A stretch of 23,236 nucleotides of DNA from IMG/VR virus record IMGVR_UViG_3300007541_010127, positions 1-23,236 of that record; one strand, written 5' to 3'. Below are positions 1,134 to 19,123 of this stretch, piece after piece. The position numbers were made by a program, and so were the translations under genes. Position 1 is the first letter of the stretch. Each line of letters begins with the position of its first letter. This DNA comes from a virus. A model generated the notes under the pieces. That model saw nothing but the letters and a program-made list of their open reading frames with translations. It was not told the DNA's origin and made no database searches.

Positions 1134-1375
1134 ATCTGGGGTTTAAATAATTCATTTACATGTGAACACTTTGCGCATGCGATAACCGGCATTGGAACTA
1201 TCGAATCTTGATTAGACCCAGTCATGAATTTAGATATTTGCTTGATCATCATTTTTTCTTGAAATACTGTGCCTCCACAATTTTCACATTCAATATACTC
1301 GGCGCTTTTTACTAAATCTAAAGGAACTCCCTTTTGATTTTGAGCAGAATTGTTGTTTTCTCCTACGATTTCCAT
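1130..1375 (-). CDS. Small zinc-ribbon protein of unknown function
   Basis: An 81-residue protein with two CxxC knuckles, C30-E-N-C33 and C67-A-K-C70, a classic four-cysteine zinc ribbon. The 33 residues between the knuckles are rich in Met, Ile and Lys. There is no signal peptide or membrane segment. It lies directly upstream of the DNA polymerase, overlapping its start by 4 bases (ATGA), and 16 bases downstream of the dUTPase gene, so the three probably form one transcript. A nucleic-acid or protein-binding role in replication or transcription is a guess from this context. The zinc ribbon is clear; I recognise no named family. Confidence 0.75.
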   Translation of the reverse strand: MEIVGENNNSAQNQKGVPLDLVKSAEYIECENCGGTVFQEKMMIKQISKFMTGSNQDSIVPMPVIACAKCSHVNELFKPQI

Positions 1376-1391
1376 ACTACTTGGTTTTTTA

Positions 1392-1859
1392 TTAATATCC
1401 TCGAGATTGACGATCTCGATTTTCTTTGTTTTTAGACATGTACATATTGTACATTTCCTCAGGAGTCATTCCGATTGATATTGCATAATTCATAAAGAAG
1501 TGAAGCATATCGATTACTTCAAATTTACATTCAAGTTGATCCCTTTCGCTAAGATCTGAAAATTTGATGTTTTTATACGATTCGTGAGCTCCTTTCCACC
1601 TCTTCCAAACGGCATTTCCATGGCCGTCCTTGATTCCACCTAAGGAGTCAGTTGCTTCATGGATCTCATCAATCATTGAATGATTATTTAGGTGCCAATA
1701 GCTCATAAGCTCACTGAGAAACATCTCATCAAATTTATAGCCGTACACGTTCTCTTGAGTATCGACCTGCATTCTCATGATGTCGCCGAGAGTGTCTTTG
1801 CTTTGAGAGTACAAATCTTCGATTTGAAGATCTGAACATTCATTATCTATGTTCGCCAT
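1392..1859 (-). CDS. All-alpha NTP pyrophosphohydrolase: dUTPase / dCTPase (T4 gp56-like role)
   Basis: A 155-residue protein resembling the dimeric dUTPase (MazG-like all-alpha) superfamily, which hydrolyses dUTP, and in T4 gp56 also dCTP, to the monophosphate and pyrophosphate. Visible metal-binding signatures are E65-x2-E68 in the helix DEIHEATDS and E114-x2-D117 in KFEVIDMLHFFMN. The W-K-R-W-K-G segment lies between them. The C-terminal KNKENRDRQSRGY matches the KNxxNxxRQ...GY tail common in phage members. It heads a leftward group with the zinc ribbon and DNA polymerase, fitting a job of keeping uracil out of DNA and supplying dUMP. An A-rich stretch precedes the ATG, with no Shine-Dalgarno. 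Whether it prefers dUTP or dCTP cannot be told from sequence. Confidence 0.85.
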   Translation of the reverse strand: MANIDNECSDLQIEDLYSQSKDTLGDIMRMQVDTQENVYGYKFDEMFLSELMSYWHLNNHSMIDEIHEATDSLGGIKDGHGNAVWKRWKGAHESYKNIKFSDLSERDQLECKFEVIDMLHFFMNYAISIGMTPEEMYNMYMSKNKENRDRQSRGY

Positions 1860-1941
1860 TTTTCATTTTTTTATCTTATACTGCATATTTTAGTTAGGAT
1901 TTGAAATTTTGACTTTTTTTAGAATTACGAAAAACTGGGTG

Positions 1942-1950
1942 GATAAATAA
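1942..1950 (+). promoter_or_regulatory. T4-late-like promoter element (GATAAATAA) upstream of tail sheath
   Basis: GATAAATAA ends 20 bases before the sheath ATG and resembles the T4 late -10 box TATAAATA. The same 9-mer or a one-base variant precedes two other transcription units in this window. No T4-style -35 is expected for late promoters. Calling it a promoter is inference from the motif and its position. Confidence 0.55.
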
Positions 1951-1970
1951 TAAAAAACATCTGTTCAGAA

Positions 1971-4955
1971 ATGGCCGAACAAAGAATTAACCTAAATAAC
2001 TTTAAGTCTAGCGGCGTATATACTATCGAGATAGATCAGAGCGAGAATATTGCTCTACCGTTGACCACTGGGCGTCTTGTTGTTGGATCGAGTAGAGTCG
2101 GTCCCTACAATACAGTTGTCCTGATCAATGATATTAGAACTCTTCGAGCAGTATACGGAGAGATCGATCCTACTCTTGAAAAGAATGGGAGCTATTTCCA
2201 TAGAACTATTGAAGTGGCTCTTAGAGAGGGCCCAGTATTTGCACTTAATGTTGTTCCATTGGACACCGAGACTGATCCTACTCTAAACTTAGATAATGCG
2301 TATTTTACGACATTTAACACTGAATCTGCATCTGAAAATGATTCAGAGGTGCCGGATCAATATCCTATTGTTGAATTCTTCAATAGGAGAAAATTATGGG
2401 TCGCGGAAGCCGACCAGTTAAATAGATCAAAGAATCTGGCACTAGGTGATGACTTTATAACTAGTCCTGGAACAATTGGTCAGGTGACCAGCGAATCAAA
2501 CAAGATTCTTTCTTTTGTAAACCTAGGAAGAACCAATGCGACTGTCTGGGTAAGACGTGCAAATATCACAGGATATGATGTTACTGCAAAGGAGTGGTAT
2601 TCAACTATCGCAGGAAGCGAAACTGAATTTCCAACATTCGTTCATCCGGATGATTTTATTTCGGACTATTTTGTCGAAGTCATTGTAGTAAAAGGAGATT
2701 GGTCTAATTACTTAAAATTATCAAAAGACCCAGTATACAGCCAGTTTTTCGATGCGACTGGATTAAAATCAAGTAGATCAGCTGACTTCTTTGCATTAAG
2801 AGAGATTGAAGTAGTTAGTAGAACAATTGGTTGCTTGATCCCTGAATTTAAGGATCAACGCGGTCTAACTGTGGCAATCGATCGTTTGGTAAACAGATTG
2901 TTTCCGACTACTGGAATTCTATGTGCACTAGACACAGATAAGCTTGATCTAGTCGATCTAACTGAAGATGCATTTACTGACAATGATATGCTAACGCATA
3001 GAGTTGATATTATTGGCCACGGATATGATAACTTGGTTTATTATGCAGACGATGGAGGTTACGATAATACTGATGCTGCAACGGATGCGGTTAAAATGAT
3101 CGATACTTTGAGCTATAAGAAACCGGCTCTTCCTGAATTGATCTTTCAATTGACTAGCGCAACTCCTGTAAATGAAGCGAATTTCCTTAATGGATACCAA
3201 GACAATGGACCAACTACGCCAGTTCAAACTGGAGACGTATATGTAATTAGCCCGGCTTCTGGAGACGATTACTTAGTTGCGACTGCAGGAAGCAAGCTCT
3301 ATGAAGCTTACAAAGGAGGTTTTGTTCAAAATGGAGACGAAGTAACTGATGATAACCCGAGTACTTATTACTTAAGAATCGACGATTCTCTTTCAGTAAC
3401 TGCAGCAGGTTCATCAACTGTGATTTCATACATCAAAGTTAGACTGTATGATGACGTTGCTCTATTGAATCAAACGAATGTTGCAGCAAGCAGCGGTTTT
3501 TATCAATCTGCAACGGATTCTAACTACTATTTGATGGTAACTTTAGAAAACGGTGATGACTTTAAGCATACTTTTACTTTGGCAACTGATTTTGGAGGAT
3601 TTACTATAACTCAACCAAACAAATTAGAGCTTGAAATCCTAACTGCGAATAAAGCACTAGTTGACGAGTTTATCAAGGTTAATAGTTATATCTTAGCTAA
3701 ATCGACAGACGGTCGACCAAGATTATTAAAGATAATTTCGGTACGTTCGTCAACAACGGCTAGCCCAGCATCAACTACATATACGGTTACGACAATGTCA
3801 TCAAATGAAGATGAAATCGACGGATTAAATGTTGATGGAGGACTTCTTAAAGTATATAAGGGAATTTACAACTTTGTTCCTAGTCTTAAAGGACAGTATA
3901 TGCCCGGCTTTAAAATTAGAAAGGAGTCGTTACCTAATAAAACTGCGGCTCGTCAAACGACTATCTTACAGTACTTGTTTGATGACACCAATATTCCTGA
4001 AACTCTAGCAAATGGAGAATTAGTGGACTATCGATATGTTGTTGATAGCTATGAGGGAGAGATTGGTTCTTCATCTAAATACTATCTTGCGAGACTCGCA
4101 GCGGATCACGGACAGGCAATGGCGATCTTAAACACACCATCGGTTCAACAATTTGAAAAATCAGTTGATCCTAGCTTTATAAGTCAGACTAACAAACTGG
4201 TTTCAATGGAATTGATTTCACAAGGTGGAGATTTAAGCCTAAATCCTAGCTTTACGTTTGCATTTGCTGAAGAAGATATTAACGGAATTCCTTTGTCTTC
4301 GTATGCGACTTATTACTTCCCTAACCTAATTGTTAGAGAAGGAAATAAAAACATATCGGTTCCACCGGCTGCATATATTTCTAACCTATACGTTAGAAAA
4401 TTCAAGAACGGTACTCCTTTCTTGATCGTAGCTGGAGGAAGACGTGGAGCAATTAATGATCCTGAGGTGGTGGGTCTAGAATATGATCTTACTGATGAGG
4501 ATAGAGATTTCTTAGAGCCAGTCGGTCATAACTTGATCGTTAAGCGTAGAGGATTTGGAAACATCTTGTTCTCAAACAATACTGGATATCAAAGAATTAA
4601 TTCTGCTCTAAATAATGCTCACGTTAGAGATAACTTATCAACTATCGAAAGAGATATTGAGCGCATCTTGTTTAACTTCTTATTCGACTTTAACGATGAG
4701 ATTACGAGACTTCGAGTAAAAACTATTGTTGAAAATTATCTAGACGCAGTTGTTTCAGCTCGAGGATTAAGTTCTTATGAGATCATTTTTGATTCTTCGA
4801 ATAATACGAATGAAGTAATTAGTGCGAATGCAGCAATTATCGATATTCGAGTAGACTTCCCAAGAGGAATTCAAAAATTCATCAACCGAATCACCATTAC
4901 AAGAGTCGGTGGAGAACTTAGCTCAGAGTCTACTGGATTTATTCCAAGTTTCTAA
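1971..4955 (+). CDS. 18: Tail sheath protein, T4 gp18-like, enlarged
   Basis: Contractile tail sheath subunit; it polymerises around the tail tube and contracts during DNA injection. The N-terminus (about residues 1-100, including SGVYTIEID, GPYNTVVLINDI and the YGEIDP region) and the C-terminal domain (about 860-994, including RILFNFLFDFNDE and the final FPRGIQKFINRITITRVGG) match the conserved gp18 ends. At 994 residues it is far longer than T4 gp18 (659). The extra length lies mainly in a Thr/Ser/Gly/Asp-rich beta-type middle region, about residues 380-640, probably one or more domains displayed on the tail surface. The gene has a late-type promoter element 20 bases upstream, is divergent from the dUTPase and ends shortly before a strong terminator. 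No Shine-Dalgarno is obvious. Its partner, the tail tube gene, is not in the window. Confidence 0.93.
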   Translation: MAEQRINLNNFKSSGVYTIEIDQSENIALPLTTGRLVVGSSRVGPYNTVVLINDIRTLRAVYGEIDPTLEKNGSYFHRTIEVALREGPVFALNVVPLDTETDPTLNLDNAYFTTFNTESASENDSEVPDQYPIVEFFNRRKLWVAEADQLNRSKNLALGDDFITSPGTIGQVTSESNKILSFVNLGRTNATVWVRRANITGYDVTAKEWYSTIAGSETEFPTFVHPDDFISDYFVEVIVVKGDWSNYLKLSKDPVYSQFFDATGLKSSRSADFFALREIEVVSRTIGCLIPEFKDQRGLTVAIDRLVNRLFPTTGILCALDTDKLDLVDLTEDAFTDNDMLTHRVDIIGHGYDNLVYYADDGGYDNTDAATDAVKMIDTLSYKKPALPELIFQLTSATPVNEANFLNGYQDNGPTTPVQTGDVYVISPASGDDYLVATAGSKLYEAYKGGFVQNGDEVTDDNPSTYYLRIDDSLSVTAAGSSTVISYIKVRLYDDVALLNQTNVAASSGFYQSATDSNYYLMVTLENGDDFKHTFTLATDFGGFTITQPNKLELEILTANKALVDEFIKVNSYILAKSTDGRPRLLKIISVRSSTTASPASTTYTVTTMSSNEDEIDGLNVDGGLLKVYKGIYNFVPSLKGQYMPGFKIRKESLPNKTAARQTTILQYLFDDTNIPETLANGELVDYRYVVDSYEGEIGSSSKYYLARLAADHGQAMAILNTPSVQQFEKSVDPSFISQTNKLVSMELISQGGDLSLNPSFTFAFAEEDINGIPLSSYATYYFPNLIVREGNKNISVPPAAYISNLYVRKFKNGTPFLIVAGGRRGAINDPEVVGLEYDLTDEDRDFLEPVGHNLIVKRRGFGNILFSNNTGYQRINSALNNAHVRDNLSTIERDIERILFNFLFDFNDEITRLRVKTIVENYLDAVVSARGLSSYEIIFDSSNNTNEVISANAAIIDIRVDFPRGIQKFINRITITRVGGELSSESTGFIPSF

Positions 4956-4982
4956 TGAGAATACGATAAATTTTAAAGATTT

Positions 4983-5010
4983 GAAAGGGAGCGAGCTCCC
5001 TTTCTTTCTA
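4983..5010 (+). terminator. Rho-independent terminator after tail sheath
   Basis: GAAAGGGAGC (4983-4992) pairs perfectly with GCTCCCTTTC (4995-5004) and is followed by the pyrimidine-rich tail TTTCTTTCT. It lies 27 bases after the sheath stop and ends about 18 bases before the endolysin ATG, so lysin expression may depend on read-through or its own promoter. Confidence 0.8.
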
Positions 5011-5028
5011 TATAAAAAATGAAATGGC

Positions 5029-5907
5029 ATGATTTTAAAATTAGGTAGCACAGGAAAACTAGTAAAGGCTTTACAGAATTTTCTAAAAATAGTTTCGGAT
5101 GGAGTCTTTGGACCAAAGACCGAGGCCGCTGTTAAAGCATGGCAAGCAAATAATAACTTAAAACCGGATGGAATAGTCGGCCCTAAGACTTGGGATGCGA
5201 TGGGACTAGCGACGACTGACTCATCTGAATTGATAATTAATTCAGATGATCTTGTGATTATTCCTAATTTTTTACCCAAAGGCGAGTATAAAACCGGTCC
5301 AACTGAAAAAGAGTATGTGTTCTTACATCACACAGCTGGGTGGAATAATCCATATAATACTATTAGAAATTGGGGTAATGACACTAGAGGCAGTATTGCT
5401 ACTGAATTTGTTTTAGGCGGCCCAAAGATAACTAACGGAGAAAACAAGTATGATGGAGTTCTATTACAAGCTTTCCCTGAAGGAGGATACGGTTGGCATT
5501 TAGGAAAAAACGGTTCTCAATATATGCATACAAATTCAGTAGGAATTGAAGTATGTAATTTTGGATGGCTTAAGAACGGAAAAACGTATGTTGGTGGAGT
5601 AGCCCACCCAGATCAAATCGTTAAATTGGCTAAGCCGTTTAGAGGATTTACTGAATGGCACAGATATTCTGATAAACAGATAGAAGTACTTAAAAAATGG
5701 ATACTGTTTGTTGCAGAGAGAGATTCAATTGATGTTAGAAACGGTCTTCCTAAATGGATCAAAGAAAAAGGAGCTGCTGCTTTTGAGTTTAATGAAAATG
5801 CGTATTATGGAAAAGTAAAAGGTTTATTAACTCATACTAATACTCGAAAGGACAAATTTGATATGTTTCCACAACAAGAGCTAATGGATATGCTAGTTTC
5901 GCTATAA
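5029..5907 (+). CDS. Endolysin: peptidoglycan-binding domain plus N-acetylmuramoyl-L-alanine amidase
   Basis: A 292-residue lysin. Residues 3-60 form a PG_binding_1 domain with the paired signatures DGVFGPKT (24-31) and DGIVGPKT (47-54). A short linker (61-80) follows, then an Amidase_2-type zinc amidase domain (about 95-292) that cleaves the bond between N-acetylmuramic acid and L-alanine. Likely zinc ligands and catalytic residues are in FLHHTAG (H100/H101), MHTNSVGIEV (around 166-175) and THTNTRKDKFD (H269, D278). There is no signal peptide, so a holin is needed, but none is seen here. The ATG at 5029 was chosen because the PG-binding domain starts at residue 3; two nearby upstream ATGs are out of frame and quickly stopped. 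Being next to the sheath suggests late expression. A perfect 11-bp inverted repeat lies in the linker-coding DNA. Confidence 0.92.
   Translation: MILKLGSTGKLVKALQNFLKIVSDGVFGPKTEAAVKAWQANNNLKPDGIVGPKTWDAMGLATTDSSELIINSDDLVIIPNFLPKGEYKTGPTEKEYVFLHHTAGWNNPYNTIRNWGNDTRGSIATEFVLGGPKITNGENKYDGVLLQAFPEGGYGWHLGKNGSQYMHTNSVGIEVCNFGWLKNGKTYVGGVAHPDQIVKLAKPFRGFTEWHRYSDKQIEVLKKWILFVAERDSIDVRNGLPKWIKEKGAAAFEFNENAYYGKVKGLLTHTNTRKDKFDMFPQQELMDMLVSL
5221..5249 (+). repeat. Perfect 11-bp inverted repeat in the endolysin linker
   Basis: TCATCTGAATT (5221-5231) and AATTCAGATGA (5239-5249) are exact reverse complements with a 7-nt spacer. They lie exactly in the DNA coding for the linker between the cell-wall-binding and amidase domains (residues about 65-74). 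Function unknown. Confidence 0.6.
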
Positions 5908-8838: not shown

Positions 8839-9108
8839 TTAGTCTTTTTTAGAAGCATCAATGATCGACTGGCGAAGATTTTTCGCTGCGTTTTGAAGCT
8901 CGACTAACTTTGATTTAGCGGTTGGGTGATGTATTGTTTTTCTTACATCTTGCATTGTCTTTTTCAAGCGATTACCTGCGCTCTGTACTCCCTTTTCGTA
9001 ATATTTAGAAGCATCGTCCTCAGCGGACTCTAAGAGCTCAACAATTGGACCAAAAATGTCCTCTTTTACTTGATTGACTTGATTGCGAAGTTCTTCAAAT
9101 TGATTCAT
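8839..9108 (-). CDS. Histone H1-like (Hc1-type) small basic DNA-binding protein
   Basis: An 89-residue helical protein. Residues about 36-88 resemble the short histone H1-like proteins widespread in Bacteroidota, as I remember the family: a YYEKGVQSAGNRLKKTMQDVRK block (about 36-57) like the family's EKGNKAAGTRARK pattern, and the ending LRQSIIDASKK (about 78-88) like FRKxSVEASKK. Residues 1-35 are a more acidic helical extension. The likely role is DNA binding and compaction, either as a phage nucleoid protein or to modify host chromatin. It lies between the packaged-protein-like pair and gp32, with its own downstream terminator and an A-rich leader. The match is by eye from a pattern of about 30 residues, so an unrelated coiled-coil protein is possible. 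Confidence 0.6.
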   Translation of the reverse strand: MNQFEELRNQVNQVKEDIFGPIVELLESAEDDASKYYEKGVQSAGNRLKKTMQDVRKTIHHPTAKSKLVELQNAAKNLRQSIIDASKKD

Positions 9109-9152: not shown

Positions 9153-9905
9153 TTATAGCGAATTTATTATTTTTTGCGCTTGTTGTGAAAATTTGGCATT
9201 TGGATAACGTTCGACCGCATGCTTGATCCATCTTTCTAGAACATCATGATACTCTTCTGAATTGATGAATTTTGAAAGAACAAAGGGTTGCAAATAATCG
9301 ATGAATATGTAGTCTAATGGAATGTCTTCAATTTCTGCCCTTGCATGGAAACCCTCTATCATCGATTCCATTTCATCACGCAACAAGAAGTATCTATAGC
9401 TTTTCTCAGATTTCTTACGATGTGATTGTTCTTCTGGAGCATTATTGAAAGGATTCTGATTAATTCCTGCTTGGTCGATATGATTTATTTCATGGACCAG
9501 GATATCAACTAATCTGGCATATAGATCATTATATACTGAAGGTTCTCGATTAGGATCGACTATGACATGAAAAGTAAGTTCAGGCACATATTTGTCAGAT
9601 TTATTCATTCTAATCGTCGCATCGATCGCAAAACCTTTTTCGTTGAAATTGTATTTTTCCCAATTTAGATCACTGAAATGTGAATCTGTTTTAAAATCAG
9701 GATTAGTATTCTTTTTAATGTGCAGTATGACGTCGATCTTATATAAATCAGCTATTTCAATACGAGCTGGCGAGAAATATGTATTTGAATCAGGATCGAG
9801 CTTTTGATTTTTTATTTTATTACTTACTTTGTGCGCAAGATCTTTTGCAAAGCGCACAATGTTTTCTTCTGATTCGTTTAGATATTGTGAGAAGGAAAGT
9901 ATCAT
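9153..9905 (-). CDS. Putative HExxH zinc metallopeptidase with prohead-targeting-like N-terminus
   Basis: A 250-residue protein. LVHEINHIDQ (136-145) is an HExxH zincin motif: H138 and H142 as zinc ligands and E139 as catalytic base. A second acidic helix, RDEMESMIEGFHARAE (176-191), could give the third ligand (E180 or E184). The N-terminus MILSFSQYLNESEEN contains L9-N-E11 followed by S12, matching the T4 gp21 prohead protease rule of cleavage after (L/I)-x-E. The next gene upstream starts alike, so both may be packaged in the capsid and trimmed. There is no signal peptide or transmembrane segment. It overlaps the upstream gene by ATGA, and the pair has a late-like promoter element. The HExxH motif is seen; protease activity and packaging are inferred, and I recognise no named family. 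Confidence 0.7.
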   Translation of the reverse strand: MILSFSQYLNESEENIVRFAKDLAHKVSNKIKNQKLDPDSNTYFSPARIEIADLYKIDVILHIKKNTNPDFKTDSHFSDLNWEKYNFNEKGFAIDATIRMNKSDKYVPELTFHVIVDPNREPSVYNDLYARLVDILVHEINHIDQAGINQNPFNNAPEEQSHRKKSEKSYRYFLLRDEMESMIEGFHARAEIEDIPLDYIFIDYLQPFVLSKFINSEEYHDVLERWIKHAVERYPNAKFSQQAQKIINSL

Positions 9906-10390
9906 GATTTTTTATACTCAATAAAGGTGACATCGATCTTATCGCATAATGGAACTCCTTCTTTAGTAAAAATAACGATCACATTGGGTTCTCTTTTTCC
10001 AAAGATATCGGTTGCAACTGCATTTTTTAGCTTTTCAATGAACTCTTCATCTTCCTTTGCAATATTTACCTTTTTACCCTTAACTATGTTAATTAGATTT
10101 TCTTTTCGGAGCTTGATTACTGAATCAGTCATTTGATTTTTATCCGTTGCTGAAATATTCTTTTCAGCCCAATTTTCTAGATTAGGCTGAGTGACTGAAT
10201 ATGATGGAAGAGAGTATTCAACACTTCCGTCTGGGTACCGCTTTGAAGAAAAATCATCAAGTGCATCAACAAATAAGAACCTATGTCGTTTTTCTTTTTT
10301 TGGAGCAGCATTCTCTCCAGGCTCTCCAGGAAGACCTGGTATTTCTTGTTCAAAAAGAAATTTAGAATATGATTTTATATGCTTTTTCAT
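9902..10390 (-). CDS. Unknown protein with prohead-targeting-like N-terminus
   Basis: A 162-residue protein with no family I recognise. The N-terminus MKKHIKSYSKFLFEQE is basic and helical and holds L12-F-E14, a possible T4 gp21-type prohead protease site. It parallels the neighbour's SFSQYLNES. A short flexible Gly/Pro segment (GLPGEPGEN, about 19-27) and a Lys-rich stretch follow. The C-terminal part (about 60-162) is mixed alpha/beta, ending in a strand-like segment (PNVIVIFTKEGVPLCDKIDV). It overlaps the putative metallopeptidase by 4 bases and is the first gene after a late-like element at 10419-10427, which fits a virion or internal protein. A partner or regulator of the protease is possible but unproven. 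Confidence 0.65.
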   Translation of the reverse strand: MKKHIKSYSKFLFEQEIPGLPGEPGENAAPKKEKRHRFLFVDALDDFSSKRYPDGSVEYSLPSYSVTQPNLENWAEKNISATDKNQMTDSVIKLRKENLINIVKGKKVNIAKEDEEFIEKLKNAVATDIFGKREPNVIVIFTKEGVPLCDKIDVTFIEYKKS

Positions 10391-10418
10391 TGGTTAAATC
10401 AAGCAATCAGTATTTAGT

Positions 10419-10427
10419 TTATTTATC
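10419..10427 (-). promoter_or_regulatory. T4-late-like promoter element (GATAAATAA) upstream of the 10390 gene pair
   Basis: The minus strand reads GAGATAAATAAAC, ending 28 bases before the ATG at 10390 and just after the nrdA terminator. It is the same 9-mer as upstream of the tail sheath. Promoter function is inferred. Confidence 0.55.
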
Positions 10428-10436
10428 TCGATTAAC

Positions 10437-10465
10437 TAAAAAAGCCCGTATTACCGGGCTTTTGA
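10437..10465 (-). terminator. Rho-independent terminator after nrdA
   Basis: On the minus strand AAAAGCCCG pairs with CGGGCTTTT around a short loop and is followed by a T-run (CGGGCTTTTTTAG). It lies 20 bases after the nrdA stop and directly before the late-like element at 10419-10427. Confidence 0.9.
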
Positions 10466-10484: not shown

Positions 10485-12338
10485 TTATCCATCACAGGAG
10501 AGACAATCGACCATTGCGGCTTGTGCAATATCTCCTCGAAGAACGCTTTCGGTTCTCATATAGTAGAGCGTCTTTATTCCTAATTTCCAGGCTTCCATAT
10601 GTACTTGATTGATCCATTTTGGAGAAGCCTCTTTAGGAAATGCTAGATTCAATGAAACTGATTGATCTACATATTGCTGGCGTATTCCTCCCTGTTTCAC
10701 AAGATCTAGCTGATTTATCTCTTTAAAGGTTTTAAATACTTCTTTAAATGGAATAGTATCGCCTTCGTATACGTCCTCTAATTTACTAGAGTGCCTTAAT
10801 TTTCCATCAACAAAATACCATTCATTTAAAAAATCAAGATCTTGAACAGATCCACCGTCTGCTAATATTTTATCCCATACCTCCTTTGTACTCATCTTCA
10901 TCTTTTTTAAGTACTTATCGAGAGTTGGATTTTTTCTAATAAACGTACCTTTAGCACTCTGTTCAGTCCATACATTTGCTGGCCATGGTTCAATTCCTGC
11001 GGATACATTACCTGATAATTTAGAATTGGACACGGTTGGTGCAATTGCTCGAAGGTGAGTATTTCTAAAACCTGTACCTGCACACCAAAGCGGTTCTCCA
11101 TATTCTTCAGCAAGATATCTAGACGCTCGATCAGATTCTATTTTTATTTGTGAGAATATTTTTCTGGTCTCAAACTGTGCAAGCAAACCTTCAAATGGGA
11201 TTCCTCTATCTTGTAAATAAGTATGCCAACCGAGCACTCCAAGACCTAGGGCACGGCCCTTTTCAGCAGATCGAATTGCGTTTTCAAAACCTCGCATGGT
11301 CTTGGCTTTTTGGATAAACTCTTCAAGAACGCCGTCTAAGAACATAGTTGACGTATAAATTAGATCAGTATCCTTCCACTCATCGTATTTTGCTAGGTTT
11401 AAAGACGATAGACAACACACAAAAGAATGTGATTCATCGGTGTGTAGGGTAATTTCGCTGCAGATATTAGTCATAAAAACCTTGAGCCCATTATGCTTAT
11501 ATGCTTCCGGGTTTTGAGAATTGACATTTCCTTTAAACATGATATAAGGTTCGCCAGTTTCTCTCCTCTTTTTAAGCACTGCTGCCCATCTCTTTCTAGC
11601 CTCAGCTTCTCCCTGTTCGACACTACGCATAAATTTGTTTGAGACAACTACACATTGATGCATGTTCATACACTGTCGATTTACATCGCCTTTAGGCTCT
11701 CGAATACCCAACCAGTCCCAAAAATCATCGTGTTCGATATTGATATTAACTGAGGCAGCACCACGTCGAACATTTCCTTGATTAGTTGCAAGAATTGTTG
11801 AATCGTACATTTTAATAAATGGAACAACGCCATCTGATGTACCGTTTCCAGTAATCGGAGAACCTGCAGGTCTTATCTGGTTTACACCAATTCCGACACC
11901 TCCTCCATGCTTGGCAAGAAGCATCATTTCTAGGTTCTTTTGACCAATATCTAAGATAGAATCAGCAACATCGATGCCGAAACATGAGATAGGAAGACCA
12001 CGTTCAGTTCCAGTGTTTGCTAGAACTGGACTAGCTAAACAAAGCCAACCTTGCCAAATATCATTAAAAAATTTTGAGGCAAGATCCGGTCTGCGTAATC
12101 TTCGAGCAACGGTCGTGGCCACTCTCCAATAAGCGTCCTTTGGGGTCTCCCCATGGAGAAGATACCCCTTTGATATAGTTTTTATGTATACTTCAGTTGC
12201 TCCCCATTCAGGAAGATCAACTCCTTTTTCCCAACCTAAATCCTCAAGCATCTTGTTTACTTCTCGAATAGATGCTTCTTGGTAATTGGATTTTTCTTGA
12301 TTTATTTCTTTTTTATATGCGTCGTCTTGTGTTTGCAT
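10485..12338 (-). CDS. nrdA: Class I ribonucleotide reductase, large (alpha) subunit NrdA
   Basis: Reduces ribonucleoside diphosphates to deoxyribonucleotides with NrdB. The active-site set is complete: redox cysteines C119 (LPISCFG) and C308 (SFVCCLSSLNL), radical/substrate residues N291-I-C293-S-E295, and the radical-transfer tyrosine pair Y592-Y593 (TLYYMRTES). The C-terminal tail ends DCLSCDG, with C612 and C615 as the swinging dithiol for re-reduction by thioredoxin or glutaredoxin. At 617 residues it is shorter than E. coli or T4 NrdA (about 750-760). Without room for a full N-terminal ATP-cone, dATP inhibition at that site is probably missing, as expected for a phage needing high dNTP output. 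The ATG lies 20 bases after the nrdB stop, so nrdB-nrdA is one transcript, ended by the terminator at 10437-10465. Confidence 0.96.
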   Translation of the reverse strand: MQTQDDAYKKEINQEKSNYQEASIREVNKMLEDLGWEKGVDLPEWGATEVYIKTISKGYLLHGETPKDAYWRVATTVARRLRRPDLASKFFNDIWQGWLCLASPVLANTGTERGLPISCFGIDVADSILDIGQKNLEMMLLAKHGGGVGIGVNQIRPAGSPITGNGTSDGVVPFIKMYDSTILATNQGNVRRGAASVNINIEHDDFWDWLGIREPKGDVNRQCMNMHQCVVVSNKFMRSVEQGEAEARKRWAAVLKKRRETGEPYIMFKGNVNSQNPEAYKHNGLKVFMTNICSEITLHTDESHSFVCCLSSLNLAKYDEWKDTDLIYTSTMFLDGVLEEFIQKAKTMRGFENAIRSAEKGRALGLGVLGWHTYLQDRGIPFEGLLAQFETRKIFSQIKIESDRASRYLAEEYGEPLWCAGTGFRNTHLRAIAPTVSNSKLSGNVSAGIEPWPANVWTEQSAKGTFIRKNPTLDKYLKKMKMSTKEVWDKILADGGSVQDLDFLNEWYFVDGKLRHSSKLEDVYEGDTIPFKEVFKTFKEINQLDLVKQGGIRQQYVDQSVSLNLAFPKEASPKWINQVHMEAWKLGIKTLYYMRTESVLRGDIAQAAMVDCLSCDG

Positions 12339-12358
12339 AGTTCAGTACATGTATTTTT

Positions 12359-13357
12359 TTAGAATATATTTTCCCAATCGTCATCTTCACCGGCTTTAGC
12401 ATAGTCGGTTGGGCGAATTGCAAAGAAATCCGTGTGGGTAACTCCTCCAGTAAGATGATAAAACCAATCTAAATTTGAGGCTAGATCTTCACTATAATGG
12501 AAGATAGATTCATAACCAAGTTCATTTAATTTTTCGTTAGCTCGCTTCTTGATAAATTCTTTAAGGTGATCGGCTTTTAGATTTTCAAGATCTCCCATTT
12601 CAAACATTTTATCGATGAATGCCATTTCCATTTGCACCATCAAAGCGGCCGCCTCCTCAACTTGTGATTGAACGGCGTCTTTAAGTTCAGGATATTCTTG
12701 ACACATATGGTTGAATAAGTAACACCCCATTTTAGAGTGAAGAGATTCATCTCTAACTGACCATTTCATTTGTTGCCCGATTCCTTTTAAAAGGTTTCGA
12801 AGTTGAAAAGAATATAAAACAGCAAATGAACTATACAATGAAACTCCTTCAGCAAATGCACTAAATATGGCAAGAGATCGAGCAACTTCTTTTCTAGCTT
12901 CTTGTGATTTTGCTAAAATTTCATGAGTATAATCACCATTGGTTTGCATTAGAAATTCAAATTTATCTGCAATTGATGGCTCATGTAAAAAGGCTTTAAA
13001 GTCTTCTAATCCTAGAGTTTCATTTAGATATGAATATGCAGTGGCATGAATTGTTTCTTGGGAACCGAACATCATTGCCATTTGTTTTATTTCATGTTTT
13101 GGAAACCATTTGGTGACCATGCCTGTCCAATAATCACTTACTGCACATTCAGTTTGAGCAAAGCCTAGTAAGATATTACCTACTAAATTCTTTTCAGCAG
13201 CCGTAAGATTTTCATTCCAGTCCTTAACGTCTCCTCCCATTGGAATTTCTGTGTGTAACCAGAACGCCTGTGCCTGCTTTAGCCAGCCCTCATTGTAATA
13301 CGTTGGATATTCAAAGGGTTTGTATTCAACCCGATCTTCAAATAAACTTTTAGCCAT
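12359..13357 (-). CDS. nrdB: Class I ribonucleotide reductase, small (beta) subunit NrdB
   Basis: A 332-residue ferritin-like radical-generating subunit. Metal ligands by alignment to E. coli NrdB are E101, H104 (SQETIHATAY), E170 (FAEGVSLY), E204 and H207 (VRDESLH). The radical tyrosine is Y108 (E. coli Y122). Spacings equal E. coli for E101-H104-Y108 and E170-E204. The first ligand, D84 in E. coli, is E70 here (FAQTECAV), exactly 31 residues before E101. This Asp-to-Glu change is known from Chlamydia class Ic, but that type has Phe at the tyrosine position, so this protein combines Glu with Tyr. The gene precedes nrdA in transcription. Its 148-base leader carries repeats and a hairpin (13365-13451). 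Confidence 0.95.
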   Translation of the reverse strand: MAKSLFEDRVEYKPFEYPTYYNEGWLKQAQAFWLHTEIPMGGDVKDWNENLTAAEKNLVGNILLGFAQTECAVSDYWTGMVTKWFPKHEIKQMAMMFGSQETIHATAYSYLNETLGLEDFKAFLHEPSIADKFEFLMQTNGDYTHEILAKSQEARKEVARSLAIFSAFAEGVSLYSSFAVLYSFQLRNLLKGIGQQMKWSVRDESLHSKMGCYLFNHMCQEYPELKDAVQSQVEEAAALMVQMEMAFIDKMFEMGDLENLKADHLKEFIKKRANEKLNELGYESIFHYSEDLASNLDWFYHLTGGVTHTDFFAIRPTDYAKAGEDDDWENIF

Positions 13358-14722: not shown

Positions 14723-17700
14723 TTAGACATACGCTCTAAAAAATCCTATTCGATCGGCTGCGGATGCAATAAAATCATCTAGGAATAGAAGAAATAGTAG
14801 ATTCTTGTTTGAAAGTCTTTCCCAGGGAGGAAGATCTTCGTGTACTAAAACTGGATGAATTTCTCGAAGAGCAAGCTTTGATAGTTTAGAATCCTTTAAA
14901 GTAAGGACATTATTTGCTATCACCGGAGTCTTAAAACCTGGAATAAATGAATCGACTGCACCTGCGCCTGCAACTATAAATGGAAGAGCCGGATTCTCAG
15001 AAATAGGCGAAAGAACTGTTTCTAATGAGGAAGCAGCTGATGAAAGAGCGGAGGTATCTATAATTGGATATAGTGCTGAAGTTGGGACAGCTTTTTTCGC
15101 GGCAGCTATCGCATTGAACGCAAGCTCAGCCGGCGGGCCCGTTGGAGGTGCTTTAAATTGAGTAAATTCAACGAAGCTAAGATTTGTTTTAACTAACGGT
15201 TTTACACCATTTAAGACTTTATAGAAAGGTGAAATTAACTGTTCAAAATCATCTAATGAAACATCTATGAAATTAGTCAGTATTGCTAATAAATCAGAAG
15301 GAGTTATGCTAAGAATATCATCGGCTAGCGTTTGAAAGTTGGGGTGTATATCCTTTGTCGATTTTACAATAACGTTTCCAGCACTAAACGTAGAAGATCG
15401 CTCAGAGCTAGATTCATTTGGTGAAAGAATGCTTTCTTGAGATTTATCAGGATCACATGTAACTATTTCAAAAGAGTCGTCGTTATTTGAAGAGTTCGAT
15501 GAAGATGATCCAGTGATTGCTCCAGTATTAGCACTGCCTCCAAAATCAGGTATAGAATTTTTCAAGTATAATACAAGAGCAGACGCAAGAGGATCCTTTA
15601 GAAGATTAAGATCGATTGGAACTCTAGCAGGCAGAGCAGGTTGTGCAGGTATAATAGATGCCTTTTGTTCAAATAAACTAGTAAGGATTCCGCTATGTGA
15701 TTGTATAAACGATGTAATATTTAGAGGTAGTGCAGGAATAGCTAGATTTCTTGGTATATTTTGATTGATTAGGCCGATCAGTCCTGCCACGATATCATTT
15801 GCATTAACTTGAGAGGCTCCACCAAAAATAGTCTTTATCCCATTTATTGAAAGAGAATCGATTGCTGAGGTTAATAATAAGCCGGCTGAATTAAAAACAG
15901 GTATGGCTGGTGGTTCTACTAAATTTAACGAAAAGCTTTCACTCTTGCAGCATGGAGAAAATGGGTCAAATGAAATTGAATAACTCTGAAGTTGATTAAA
16001 AACTTGTTGAGTAATGGCAAGAGCCCTAGCCGTTTTCTCACGCTCAAAATATTCGAGGCGAGCGGATTCTGCTTTATTGATTTTAAGTTGAATCTTTTTT
16101 CTTTTTACAGTATCCTGTTCTTTATTAAGCTGGTCTCGATATTCATTAATTTTTGCTTGAACTTCTTGTGAAGAACCATCACTTATTCCACTGGCTGCTC
16201 GAACCAACTCCTTAGTTGAATCCTTTAAAATTGATTTAGCAGTGTCTATATCTTTTTCAAGATCAAGTGATCCGATTGAGTCCAGTTTAGACTGAATATT
16301 CGTAAGAATCTTCGATTTATTCTTTGCAAGTTCCTTCAAAAATATCATTCGAACTTTAGAATCATCCTTCGAAAGAAACTGCGTACCGAATAGGTTTGAA
16401 ATTTCTCGAATATTGTCTAAAAATGCAAGAATAGGATTTTGTTTTGGATCAAGAGAAGCTGTTCTTTTTGGGATATAGATGGTCGGAAGATCGATCTTAT
16501 TGAAATAAGCAATAAGGTCTTGTTCTAGCGCAGTTATCTTTTCAGATAACTCAATTCCATCTAATTTTGAAGATTGTCTTAGAGCAGCTGCAGCAACGGT
16601 ATTATTATTTTGTAAAGCGCGCTGAGTATCGCTTAGTATTTTTTCTCTTCGCTTTATTGCACGATCCTTTAATCGATTTATTGAAGAAAGCTGAGGTCTG
16701 CCCAGATCGTTTATCCTTTTACGAATAGTATGTCTTAAGTCATCGATAAAATCTTCAACAGAATCACCCTTATTTAATGCTTCGCTCAGTTCTCCTAAAA
16801 TCCCAATCTTTCGAGTTGCTCGAGATATATTATTTTTTTCTCTTTTTATTTTTTTTAGTCGATTTTCATTATTGTATTCTGTTGCAATCTGTTCAGATCT
16901 ATTTAGAATCGTTGTCTGTCGATCGAGGGCCTCTTGCTCGATCTGTGAAAGAGAATTAGTCACGACTTCCTGTGCAGCAGCGACAATAAGAGGAACCTGT
17001 ATAGATCTTTTAATTGAGCTTTGGTCTCCATCTGCTCCAAATTTATCAGACGGTCCTTTCACGGTTAAGATGTGCTGCTTGAATCCACTTGGACTTACAA
17101 AAAATACGACCGGTGAAATGAATATTCCATTAACTGTTAAAAAGAACACAAAATTTCCTACTGAGCTTGATATAGTTATCAATGGAATCCAAACAATGGG
17201 CAATGGAATCTTGATTAGTTTGACCGGTGTCGGAATGATTAATCCGACCGGCCAATATCTTAATTGTGTGGGTATTCCATTAGGGATCGGGGTTAGTCCT
17301 AGGCCATTTGCTATTTTTGAAAACTCTTTCCAATAGCAATGTTGGTTTTGAGTAGGTAACGTAGGATCGCATCCGCTTAATGTTTTAGTAAATAACGGGT
17401 CGCTTCCCAACGTTTCATTAACGTCTGGACAGGCATCCGTATTTTTATCGATATCATTAAAACATTCAGGACTAGCTTCCTTAAGAGTCTTTTTTATCTT
17501 CTCAGGGTTGGGCTTGAGCTCTGCTAATTTTTCTTCTAAGCGAGTTAGTTCAGAAGATAACGATTTTGCTTTGTTTGCAAAATTTGAAGTAAATTCAGTG
17601 ATCTGTAAAAAAGTATTATTTAAAGTTTCTGATGTTTTTCTGGTTTTAGTGTCGGTCTGACTTAATAGAAATATCAATTGAGCTTCTTTTCTAGCAATAG

Positions 17701-19123
17701 ATTTAAGCCCTATCGAGACTAATTCTTTTGCTGGATTAATTACTTGCTCTCTTTTTTGTTTTTTTCGTTCTTCGAATTTTATTTCAAAGGTCTCATAAAA
17801 TGATTGTAATCTCTTAACATCGTTAATAAAATATTCTTTGGTTCCTTCGCGTTTGCGTTCAGAACCGGTGCCAATAAGAACTGGATCGATTAAATTTAGG
17901 TCCTCCGTGAGGCCCCTTTCAGAAAGGCTAAAAAAGTTATTTACTGGGTCGTCTAACAGATTATAGAACTGAGAATAAAGTGTTCCAGTCGGTTTTCGAT
18001 CTCCGATTACAAGATCGCTGAGCGAATAATTTGTGTTGTCAGAATCTATAAAAAATTCTCGATTGGCCAATAACTCACTTGATCGAATTGGGAATTTTTC
18101 AGTAATAATTGAACGCTCGCCGGTCTCCTGATTGAATATTTCTTTTTCAAGATCAATACTGGTAAGATTTAAAAATCGTATTCGATAGTTAAGTCTATCT
18201 TGATTCACAAAGTAAGATATGTCACCAGAGGATACTTCAGAAAGTGAAATAGATAATCCTTCTGAATAATTACGAAGGGCGTTATTAGTTTCTTGGATAA
18301 TTCCGCTTGAGTTAGATCCAAAAATTACAGTGATTAACGTATTTAGATATGATCTTCTTGCATTTAAGGAGGTTGAGTCAAGGTTTTCATAACTCTCGGC
18401 CGATCCCAAGAGAGAGATTAACGAATTGAATGCTATATCTCCTGAGGATGCATTTGGATATAATGAGGTTTTTAGTTCTCTACGTGAGTTATCAATAAGA
18501 TTTCTTTGATCTCTTATTTTTCGATCAAGTGAATTTATATCTGAAACGACTTGCGATCTTTGAGAAATAAGAGATTGCACTAAGCTTATATTAAGAGCGT
18601 TTTCTGCTATTTCAGAATTTAGTTCGCCTCTTTTCTTAATTAGTCCATCTCTTTCATTTTTTAGCTGGTCCAGTTTTATGACAAGCGGTTCATATGTATT
18701 GGTCAACTCAGCATAAATCTTTGCTTTTTCTTCATAATATGCAGCAAGCGGCTCAAAATTATCTTTGAATTCAAGAAGTTTTTCATATAATATCTTGTGT
18801 CGATTATATTCAGTTATCTGCTTTTCAATTTGTTGATTTATATCGCGAACGCTTTCCACACATTTTAATGAAGGAAGATCTGGAGCAATAAAATCTAAAG
18901 CCGGTTCGATTTCGCTGATTAAATCAGGAATAGCCAGATCATCACAAGGTACGTCATTTATAGAATCAATTGGAATACCGGCTTGATCTACCTGGGAGCA
19001 TAGAGAGTTATTCAACAGGTCGTTTAGTTCGTCATCAGTAAATTTTGATTTGACTTCATCGACTGTTATATTTAAAACCTTAGCGATCTCAGTTATTATT
19101 AGATCAAGCGGGGACTGGGCCAT
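14723..19123 (-). CDS. Very large coiled-coil protein, probable virion component, function unknown
   Basis: A 1466-residue protein, the largest gene here. By eye: residues 1-110 are acidic and proline-containing with three cysteines. Coiled coils span about 110-240 and 470-590. A cysteine-bearing segment (about 585-625) precedes a strongly hydrophobic proline-rich stretch at about 625-683 (PVGLIIPTPVKLIKIPLPIV and following). Lys/Glu-rich coiled coil resumes at about 740-1110 and includes CCKSES. The rest is Ala/Pro/Ser-rich with a conserved-looking end (HEDLPPWERL, then LLFLLFLDDFI). There is no signal peptide and no enzyme motif. A late-like element 21 bases upstream and the size suggest a structural, baseplate, internal or tail-associated protein. 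The hydrophobic stretch could contact membranes or line a virion channel. I do not recognise the family. Confidence 0.7.
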   Translation of the reverse strand: MAQSPLDLIITEIAKVLNITVDEVKSKFTDDELNDLLNNSLCSQVDQAGIPIDSINDVPCDDLAIPDLISEIEPALDFIAPDLPSLKCVESVRDINQQIEKQITEYNRHKILYEKLLEFKDNFEPLAAYYEEKAKIYAELTNTYEPLVIKLDQLKNERDGLIKKRGELNSEIAENALNISLVQSLISQRSQVVSDINSLDRKIRDQRNLIDNSRRELKTSLYPNASSGDIAFNSLISLLGSAESYENLDSTSLNARRSYLNTLITVIFGSNSSGIIQETNNALRNYSEGLSISLSEVSSGDISYFVNQDRLNYRIRFLNLTSIDLEKEIFNQETGERSIITEKFPIRSSELLANREFFIDSDNTNYSLSDLVIGDRKPTGTLYSQFYNLLDDPVNNFFSLSERGLTEDLNLIDPVLIGTGSERKREGTKEYFINDVKRLQSFYETFEIKFEERKKQKREQVINPAKELVSIGLKSIARKEAQLIFLLSQTDTKTRKTSETLNNTFLQITEFTSNFANKAKSLSSELTRLEEKLAELKPNPEKIKKTLKEASPECFNDIDKNTDACPDVNETLGSDPLFTKTLSGCDPTLPTQNQHCYWKEFSKIANGLGLTPIPNGIPTQLRYWPVGLIIPTPVKLIKIPLPIVWIPLITISSSVGNFVFFLTVNGIFISPVVFFVSPSGFKQHILTVKGPSDKFGADGDQSSIKRSIQVPLIVAAAQEVVTNSLSQIEQEALDRQTTILNRSEQIATEYNNENRLKKIKREKNNISRATRKIGILGELSEALNKGDSVEDFIDDLRHTIRKRINDLGRPQLSSINRLKDRAIKRREKILSDTQRALQNNNTVAAAALRQSSKLDGIELSEKITALEQDLIAYFNKIDLPTIYIPKRTASLDPKQNPILAFLDNIREISNLFGTQFLSKDDSKVRMIFLKELAKNKSKILTNIQSKLDSIGSLDLEKDIDTAKSILKDSTKELVRAASGISDGSSQEVQAKINEYRDQLNKEQDTVKRKKIQLKINKAESARLEYFEREKTARALAITQQVFNQLQSYSISFDPFSPCCKSESFSLNLVEPPAIPVFNSAGLLLTSAIDSLSINGIKTIFGGASQVNANDIVAGLIGLINQNIPRNLAIPALPLNITSFIQSHSGILTSLFEQKASIIPAQPALPARVPIDLNLLKDPLASALVLYLKNSIPDFGGSANTGAITGSSSSNSSNNDDSFEIVTCDPDKSQESILSPNESSSERSSTFSAGNVIVKSTKDIHPNFQTLADDILSITPSDLLAILTNFIDVSLDDFEQLISPFYKVLNGVKPLVKTNLSFVEFTQFKAPPTGPPAELAFNAIAAAKKAVPTSALYPIIDTSALSSAASSLETVLSPISENPALPFIVAGAGAVDSFIPGFKTPVIANNVLTLKDSKLSKLALREIHPVLVHEDLPPWERLSNKNLLFLLFLDDFIASAADRIGFFRAYV

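Follow-up and report, generated by a model that had tools for sequence, protein, structure and literature searches.

We analyzed a stretch of 23,236 nt of viral DNA (positions 1 to 23,236 of the IMG/VR record IMGVR_UViG_3300007541_010127, hereafter the window), a 23-kb fragment of a T4-like phage with genes for a tail sheath, gp32, NrdA/B and a GroEL-like protein. On its minus strand lie two overlapping open reading frames, ORF1 and ORF2, which an initial annotation had read as a possible pair of injected effectors, one of them a putative metalloprotease, with N-termini matching the cleavage rule for proteins packaged in the T4 prohead. The pair has the following features (arrows mark predicted cleavage sites):

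9153..9905, minus strand: ORF2, 250 amino acids (aa); leader, helical arm and zincin-like metalloprotease domain (26 aligned sequences, AlphaFold2)
9902..10390, minus strand: ORF1, 162 aa; leader, Pro/Ala/Gly-rich linker and small alpha/beta domain; conserved partner upstream of ORF2
9902..9905, minus strand: ATGA overlap, ORF1–ORF2 translational coupling; overlap of 1 or 4 nt in all close loci
9873..9905, minus strand: ORF2 leader MILSFSQYLNE; predicted prohead cleavage after E11 (NE↓S); residues 1–10 of low confidence in the model
10349..10390, minus strand: ORF1 leader MKKHIKSYSKFLFE; predicted prohead cleavage after E14 (FE↓Q)
9480..9494, minus strand: HEINH zinc-binding/catalytic motif, residues 138–142; H138, E139 and H142 invariant; predicted helix 124–146
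9363..9392, minus strand: YFLLRDEMES, residues 172–181, with E178 as predicted third zinc ligand; Y172, F173, L174 and E178 invariant; predicted helix 176–193

Both leaders follow the pattern [F/Y]xx[F/Y]LxE. In T4 IPIII (MKTYQEFIAE↓A), amber-suppression mapping assigned residues 4 and 7 mainly to targeting and residues 8 and 10 to processing (PMC9026906). All four positions are matched with identical spacing by F5, Y8, L9 and E11 of ORF2 and by Y8, F11, L12 and E14 of ORF1, which places targeting residues at P7/P4 and processing residues at P3 (L/I) and P1 (E). With the protein bodies of the same clade as background, [FYW]xx[FYW][LIV]xE (the exact motif) is expected by chance among the 25 N-terminal residues in 0.4% of clade proteins. 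The probability of finding it in two given proteins is 1.9e-5, or 1.5e-6 if S/A/G/Q is required as the next residue, and among the 20 window proteins only ORF1 and ORF2 carry it. The matching L-x-E N-termini described in the initial annotation were thus confirmed by sequence, spacing and chance expectation; the ATGA overlap and the residue numbers E11, E14 and E139 given there are correct as well.

Conservation of the leaders and of the predicted protease domain

We gathered 58 relatives of ORF2 and aligned 26 sequences (alignment A4), in which the relatives are 18–46% identical to ORF2. The leader spacing is present in all 26, and the column of E11, the P1 Glu, is invariant, as are D95, D134, H138, E139, H142, Y172, F173, L174, E178, G185 and others. 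Among the nine closest ORF2 sequences the mean pairwise identity is 0.55 for residues 1–12, 0.22 for residues 13–35 and 0.58–0.69 around the catalytic helices. The P1 Glu is therefore as fixed as the zinc ligands while adjoining residues drift, which fits a cut site behind a detachable arm.

ORF1 was found upstream of ORF2 in 11 loci, near-identical copies excluded; one of them (L028) has lost the start at the contig end, so that its leader was left out of the count. The leaders of all 10 complete homologues end in [L/I/V]xE with varying middle residues (LFE↓Q, VLE↓Q, LFE↓Q, IFE↓A, LIE↓Q, IAE↓Q, INE↓Q, INE↓E, LLE↓Q and LFE↓Q). The L-x-E rule of the initial annotation holds in both ORFs but is too narrow, as relatives have V at P3 (VLE, VYE, VSE); the predicted cleavage rule is better stated as [L/I/V]xE with two aromatic/hydrophobic targeting positions. 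A tblastn search for ORF1 in phage isolates found none. The ORF2 family occurs in GTDB genomes on a single 7-kb contig of a metagenome-assembled genome (MAG), and we therefore take it as essentially phage-restricted. A Burkholderiaceae MAG contig (L239, 1-1445) begins with ORF2-like and nucleotidase genes resembling those of Flavobacterium phage immuto and continues with apparently bacterial genes; it is a probable chimeric assembly.

From alignment A4 we obtained an AlphaFold2 model of ORF2 with a predicted local distance difference test (pLDDT) score of 86 and a predicted template modelling (pTM) score of 0.85, residues 1–10 being at about 51. In this model HExxH and the Glu further downstream occupy two separate helices, the two-helix arrangement of zincins known from phage metallopeptidases (MPTases) (PMC5512222). 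HExxH and Glu, each on a predicted helix and all invariant, support the earlier assignment of a putative metalloprotease, and sequence and model together make it quite likely that ORF2 is an active zinc protease. Pfam yielded no family for ORF2 at E ≤ 0.1, polyvalent MPTase domains included; Pfam and PHROGs returned nothing significant for either ORF, a sequence comparison of ORF2 with solved structures gave no match, and the Foldseek matches in BFVD are uncharacterised phage proteins only. For ORF1 the model shows disordered residues 1–30 and a folded small alpha/beta domain at 33–160; its relatives are likewise uncharacterised phage proteins only.

In immuto-type phages the ORF2 domain forms the C-terminal part of a protein of 524–907 aa that also contains NadR-like domains, domains of other kinds and a further HExxH. 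Only L006, L041, L065, L042, L033 and L069 are multi-domain relatives; ORF2 itself is single-domain and does not show the several effector domains of a polyvalent protein. The fusion junctions ILVE↓GRYDK (L033), PINE↓GRYDK (L069) and VMAE↓GRYD (L006, L041, L065) correspond in the alignment to the point where the leader of stand-alone relatives ends (...LLME↓GRYDKL), and the alignment of L029 to immuto extends through the L029 leader. An LxE↓G-like site at the last domain junction is found in five of six NadR-like polyproteins, L042 being the one without. As these sites lie where the stand-alone relatives begin, the sequences suggest that the signal is often retained as an internal processing site. 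The gene next upstream in L033, L042 and L069 encodes a P-loop protein with a leader (MIKLSTLILEG..GGAGAGKT).

Head proteins, leader use and late elements in related phages

Neither the window nor its nearest contigs span a full genome, and we used a TerL search of the clade to find a fuller genome. In G016 (L180, 207 kb), a member of the same clade, the ORF1–ORF2 pair lies at 94026-95251 between the nrdA and gp32 genes, and profile searches matched Peptidase_S77 (E = 2.5e-12) and Gp23 (E = 1.6e-35). At the level of the lineage, a gp21-type protease and a Gp23 capsid protein thus occur alongside the pair; some ten G016 proteins bear a leader. Both families were also found in more distant carriers of ORF2, namely immuto (= G010), G011, G012, G013, G015, G007 and G008. 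The initial annotation had pointed to the major capsid protein as a further place for the L-x-E pattern, and in the N-terminal arm of the G016 capsid protein, in a loose alignment that makes all sites there predictions, we found PLFE↓QATAPG, whose LFE↓Q is identical to that of ORF1. Predicted capsid-arm sites elsewhere are LYE↓N in G007, IYE↓S in Flavobacterium phage MaF61 and VSE↓A in immuto and G012. The protein G005_252 (AKNRQGN) was considered as a prohead protease and rejected by profile comparison; by eye it resembles a protein of the Ro/vWA type. Adjoining the tail tube gene, G001 (52577-53545) and G016 (69216-69869) encode an acidic protein, a candidate scaffold or core protein, the G001 copy of which has an internal TSFKQFVNE↓Y.

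The leader recurs on other genes of related phages. Leaders with the exact spacing were observed 12 times against 0.38 expected in G017 (P = 1e-14), 9 against 1.66 in G016, 6 against 0.48 in G006, 4 against 0.19 in G005 and 12 against 2.1 in LR756500 (300 kb sampled); in G007 the numbers are 29 against 1.33 (P = 1e-28, a value not taken over independent events, as these leaders are partly paralogous). As controls, T7 has no exact leader, and in T4 the same method recovers ipII and ipIII. Of 67 leaders, 50 have S/A/G directly after the P1 Glu, compared with 13 of 60 internal matches in protein bodies (P = 2e-9). Looser leaders occur in G012 (e.g. MKLKQLILEG) and in immuto, which repeats MENFDLKKFLVEN, and many variant leaders of the form F/Y-xx-W...[VILA]xE↓[SAQ] are present in G006 and G017. 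Most labelled proteins, i.e. those bearing a leader, have no recognisable function; the remainder include NUDIX hydrolases (G005 11936-12445; by eye also G016 170051 and G017 98647), a putative metallopeptidase DUF2201_N (G006 97480-98604) and a cytidylyltransferase-like enzyme (G007 84731-85585). On visual inspection two apparent leaders were discarded as false, namely LNRYLSE in G006 (100508), which is similar to sigma factor region 1.2, and QYLDQDYREY in G016 (60581), which has the look of a topoisomerase N-terminus.

Most of the 29 leaders of G007 (L088-L096, 166 kb; e.g. 1180-5655, 40351-47041 and 82145-97960) read MKNxxSYxEFLNE[A/S] or close to it, probably an unusually large head-targeted set for one phage. 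Putative late genes whose products have variant leaders of the form F/Y-xx-W-...-[V/I/L]xE↓[S/A/Q] are clustered at 79.8–114.8 kb in G006 (L100-L103), 92–125 kb in G017 and 167–200 kb in G016; NUDIX and metallopeptidase-like proteins are among them. The uncultured 462-kb phage LR756500.1 (L240-L245) has leader-bearing proteins as well (e.g. MKYIQTYKDFLIES), one of which (L243 17942-19207) resembles by eye the phage's own prohead protease.

Upstream of the pair we observed the following elements:

10417..10427, minus strand: late-promoter-like element GATAAATAAAC, 37 nt upstream of ORF1; also kept ahead of ORF1 in relatives
1942..1952, plus strand: same element, GATAAATAATA, 29 nt upstream of the tail sheath gene
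10440..10463, listed on the plus strand (nearly symmetric, strand not decisive): terminator-like hairpin AAAAGCCCG...CGGGCTTTT between nrdA and the pair

The late-type element of the initial annotation was recovered in this way, and GATAAATAAAC is one of only four [GTA]ATAAATA sites within the window. ORF1 and the tail sheath gene share the element [G/A]ATAAATAA, whose position before the tail sheath gene would tie the pair to virion-gene timing. At a distance of 21–37 nt, [G/A]ATAAATAATA precedes ORF1 in relatives, the tail sheath gene of the window, the G016 S77 gene and many labelled or structural genes. In G006, 22 of 24 element sites have a gene start no more than 200 nt downstream, and the distance is almost always 21–34 nt. 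Genes with a broad-form leader carry the element in 39 of 100 cases versus 83 of 515 for other genes (P = 9e-7).

The pair is flanked by nrdA (10485-12338) and by a small histone-H1-like protein (8839-9108) plus gp32. The small protein, directly downstream, matches Hc1 (PF07432, E = 2.4e-12); its position is kept in relatives and it has no leader. A 1466-aa protein (14723-19123) is conserved in the clade, has a late element in front and has no relatives among isolates; it starts with LDLIITE, which fits the loose motif only and is not claimed as a leader. The nearest matches of the window sheath are an uncultured 462-kb phage, MaF61, other huge phages and Prevotella Lak phages, and the host group of this large T4-like phage is most likely Bacteroidota.

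Proposed role of the pair and alternative explanations

Taken together, the invariant P1 Glu, the IPIII spacing, S77 and Gp23 in the clade, the late-promoter-like elements and the genome-wide use of the leader strongly support prohead targeting, as the initial annotation had proposed. We suggest that ORF1 and ORF2 are transcribed late as one operon and encode proteins that a large T4-like phage carries inside its head. The leaders of 11 and 14 residues would bind the prohead core via their aromatics (F5/Y8 in ORF2, Y8/F11 in ORF1), and a gp21-type S77 protease would cut after the P1 Glu, so that ORF1 and the zinc protease ORF2 are freed in their mature forms within the head, from which both would exit together with the DNA. 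As infection begins, ORF2 would cut one particular protein of the host, most likely one that serves in defence or regulation. ORF1 would be delivered with it as a partner and may act as a cofactor or a second effector, or equally well as an inhibitor or a carrier of the protease. Our first guess for the target is a defence factor because T4 IPI, IPII and IPIII, which carry such a leader, are injected restriction inhibitors. Judged from the sequences, packaging via the leader is very likely and cleavage after E11 and E14 hardly less so; ejection is likely, and a host target for ORF2 is favored by a narrow margin only. The explanation as a whole, from late operon to host target, seems to us fairly probable.

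Several observations weigh against this explanation. The window itself contains neither a prohead protease nor a capsid gene, both being taken from the same-clade G016. The ORF2 model matched nothing in the PDB (Foldseek, E ≤ 0.001); the zincin fold is therefore deduced from the motif and from where the helices lie, and the family appears divergent. The late element is not significantly associated with the exact-form leader (P = 0.14), the exact motif is not enriched in G012 (0), immuto (2 against 0.8) or MaF61 (1 against 0.5), and the paralogy within G007 tempers its count. A literature search for virion proteomics of immuto or MaF61 found none.

A tentative possibility, compatible with the proposed mechanism, is that ORF1 is an inhibitor that holds ORF2 inactive during assembly, the shared leader co-loading both and ORF2 being the sole effector. 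This would agree with the 11 loci in which the two genes are strictly paired, keep their order and are translationally coupled, with an ORF1 family narrower than that of ORF2 and with a folded ORF1 domain behind a flexible linker. However, stand-alone ORF2 relatives outside the clade occur without ORF1, and ORF1 resembles no known inhibitor in Pfam, PHROGs and BFVD comparisons.

The main rival, which we regard as unlikely, is that ORF2 is an accessory head-maturation protease, packaged by its leader to trim core proteins or labelled cargo, including polyproteins, inside the prohead or virion. A zincin has been proposed as polyprotein processor for phage polyvalent proteins (PMC5512222), the ORF2 domain neighbours a second HExxH domain in polyproteins, and ORF2 keeps its locus in those sampled genomes of the clade that extend over it. 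However, MaF61, which has an S77-like scaffold/protease, a related TerL and the capsid protein, gave no ORF2 homologue, which argues that ORF2 is not a core morphogenesis gene; moreover, LxE cleavage is already supplied by S77, and the leader would free ORF2 only at maturation.

It is highly improbable that the leader is a tail, baseplate or other assembly anchor or a membrane-binding helix with an incidental LxE: the amphipathic leaders and the position of the pair among replication genes, outside the head cluster, would suit such a role, but not the IPIII-identical spacing, the invariant P1 Glu followed by a small residue, the co-occurrence of S77 and Gp23, the matching capsid-protein site and the polyprotein junctions. 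That the N-terminal match in two non-virion enzymes is mere chance can practically be dismissed, for although the motif is short and was noticed in a single window, the low probability for the pair does not yet count conservation in >10 relatives, which already contradicts this idea.

Returning to delivery of the pair with the DNA, the label on many proteins of relatives suggests that a whole set is brought into the bacterium together. On balance we find it plausible that the leader is part of a modular head-loading code, in which one leader of 11–14 residues is placed on about 10–30 unrelated proteins per genome and LxE is reused inside polyproteins. The virion would deliver a large enzymatic arsenal, of which the pair is a clade-conserved member; with the same reserve, its cargo would comprise zinc proteases, a NUDIX hydrolase, NMN-adenylyltransferase-like enzymes and many unknowns. 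With a leader readable from sequence it would be possible to predict which proteins uncultured large phages inject, and a simple rule renders the question of which phage proteins enter the cell first testable. The co-delivered protease is a possible host-defence or takeover factor.

Comparison with known systems

T4 injects three small internal proteins (IPs) and Alt. We rate T4-style internal proteins as already known and a metalloprotease as their cargo as new. IPI, IPII and IPIII carry a capsid targeting sequence, are cleaved by gp21 and injected, and all three block restriction enzymes (type IV restriction inhibitors) (PMC12373910). The pair shares with them the leader of 10–14 residues (aromatic-xx-aromatic-[L/I]xE) in front of unrelated cargo, the late-type element and, in the same clade, the S77 protease and Gp23. 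In contrast to the IPs, its cargo is a predicted zinc metalloprotease and a partner domain without recognised IP similarity, and relatives of the window phage have far more labelled proteins per genome. Alt is an injected ADP-ribosyltransferase whose propeptide is removed by gp21 (PMC9026906); it is enzyme cargo of the head, as predicted for ORF2, but large, of another enzyme class and non-homologous. The polyvalent zincin-like MPTase proteins (Iyer et al. 2017, PMC5512222) resemble ORF2 in being phage-borne two-helix zincins with HExxH and Glu and predicted host entry, and immuto-type relatives of ORF2 are fused to nucleotidyltransferase/NadR-like domains. Unlike them, ORF2 stands alone with a T4-type leader and belongs to no Pfam family, while its fused relatives have a leader-like LxE at the junction. 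The product gp182 of immuto (L006 3847-6570, annotated NadR) has a C-terminal domain homologous to ORF2 (24–25% identity; 32% to the L029 member) with conserved HEIEH and KEVDAN, but it is a polyprotein of 907 aa in which an internal MAE↓GRYD junction takes the place of the leader.
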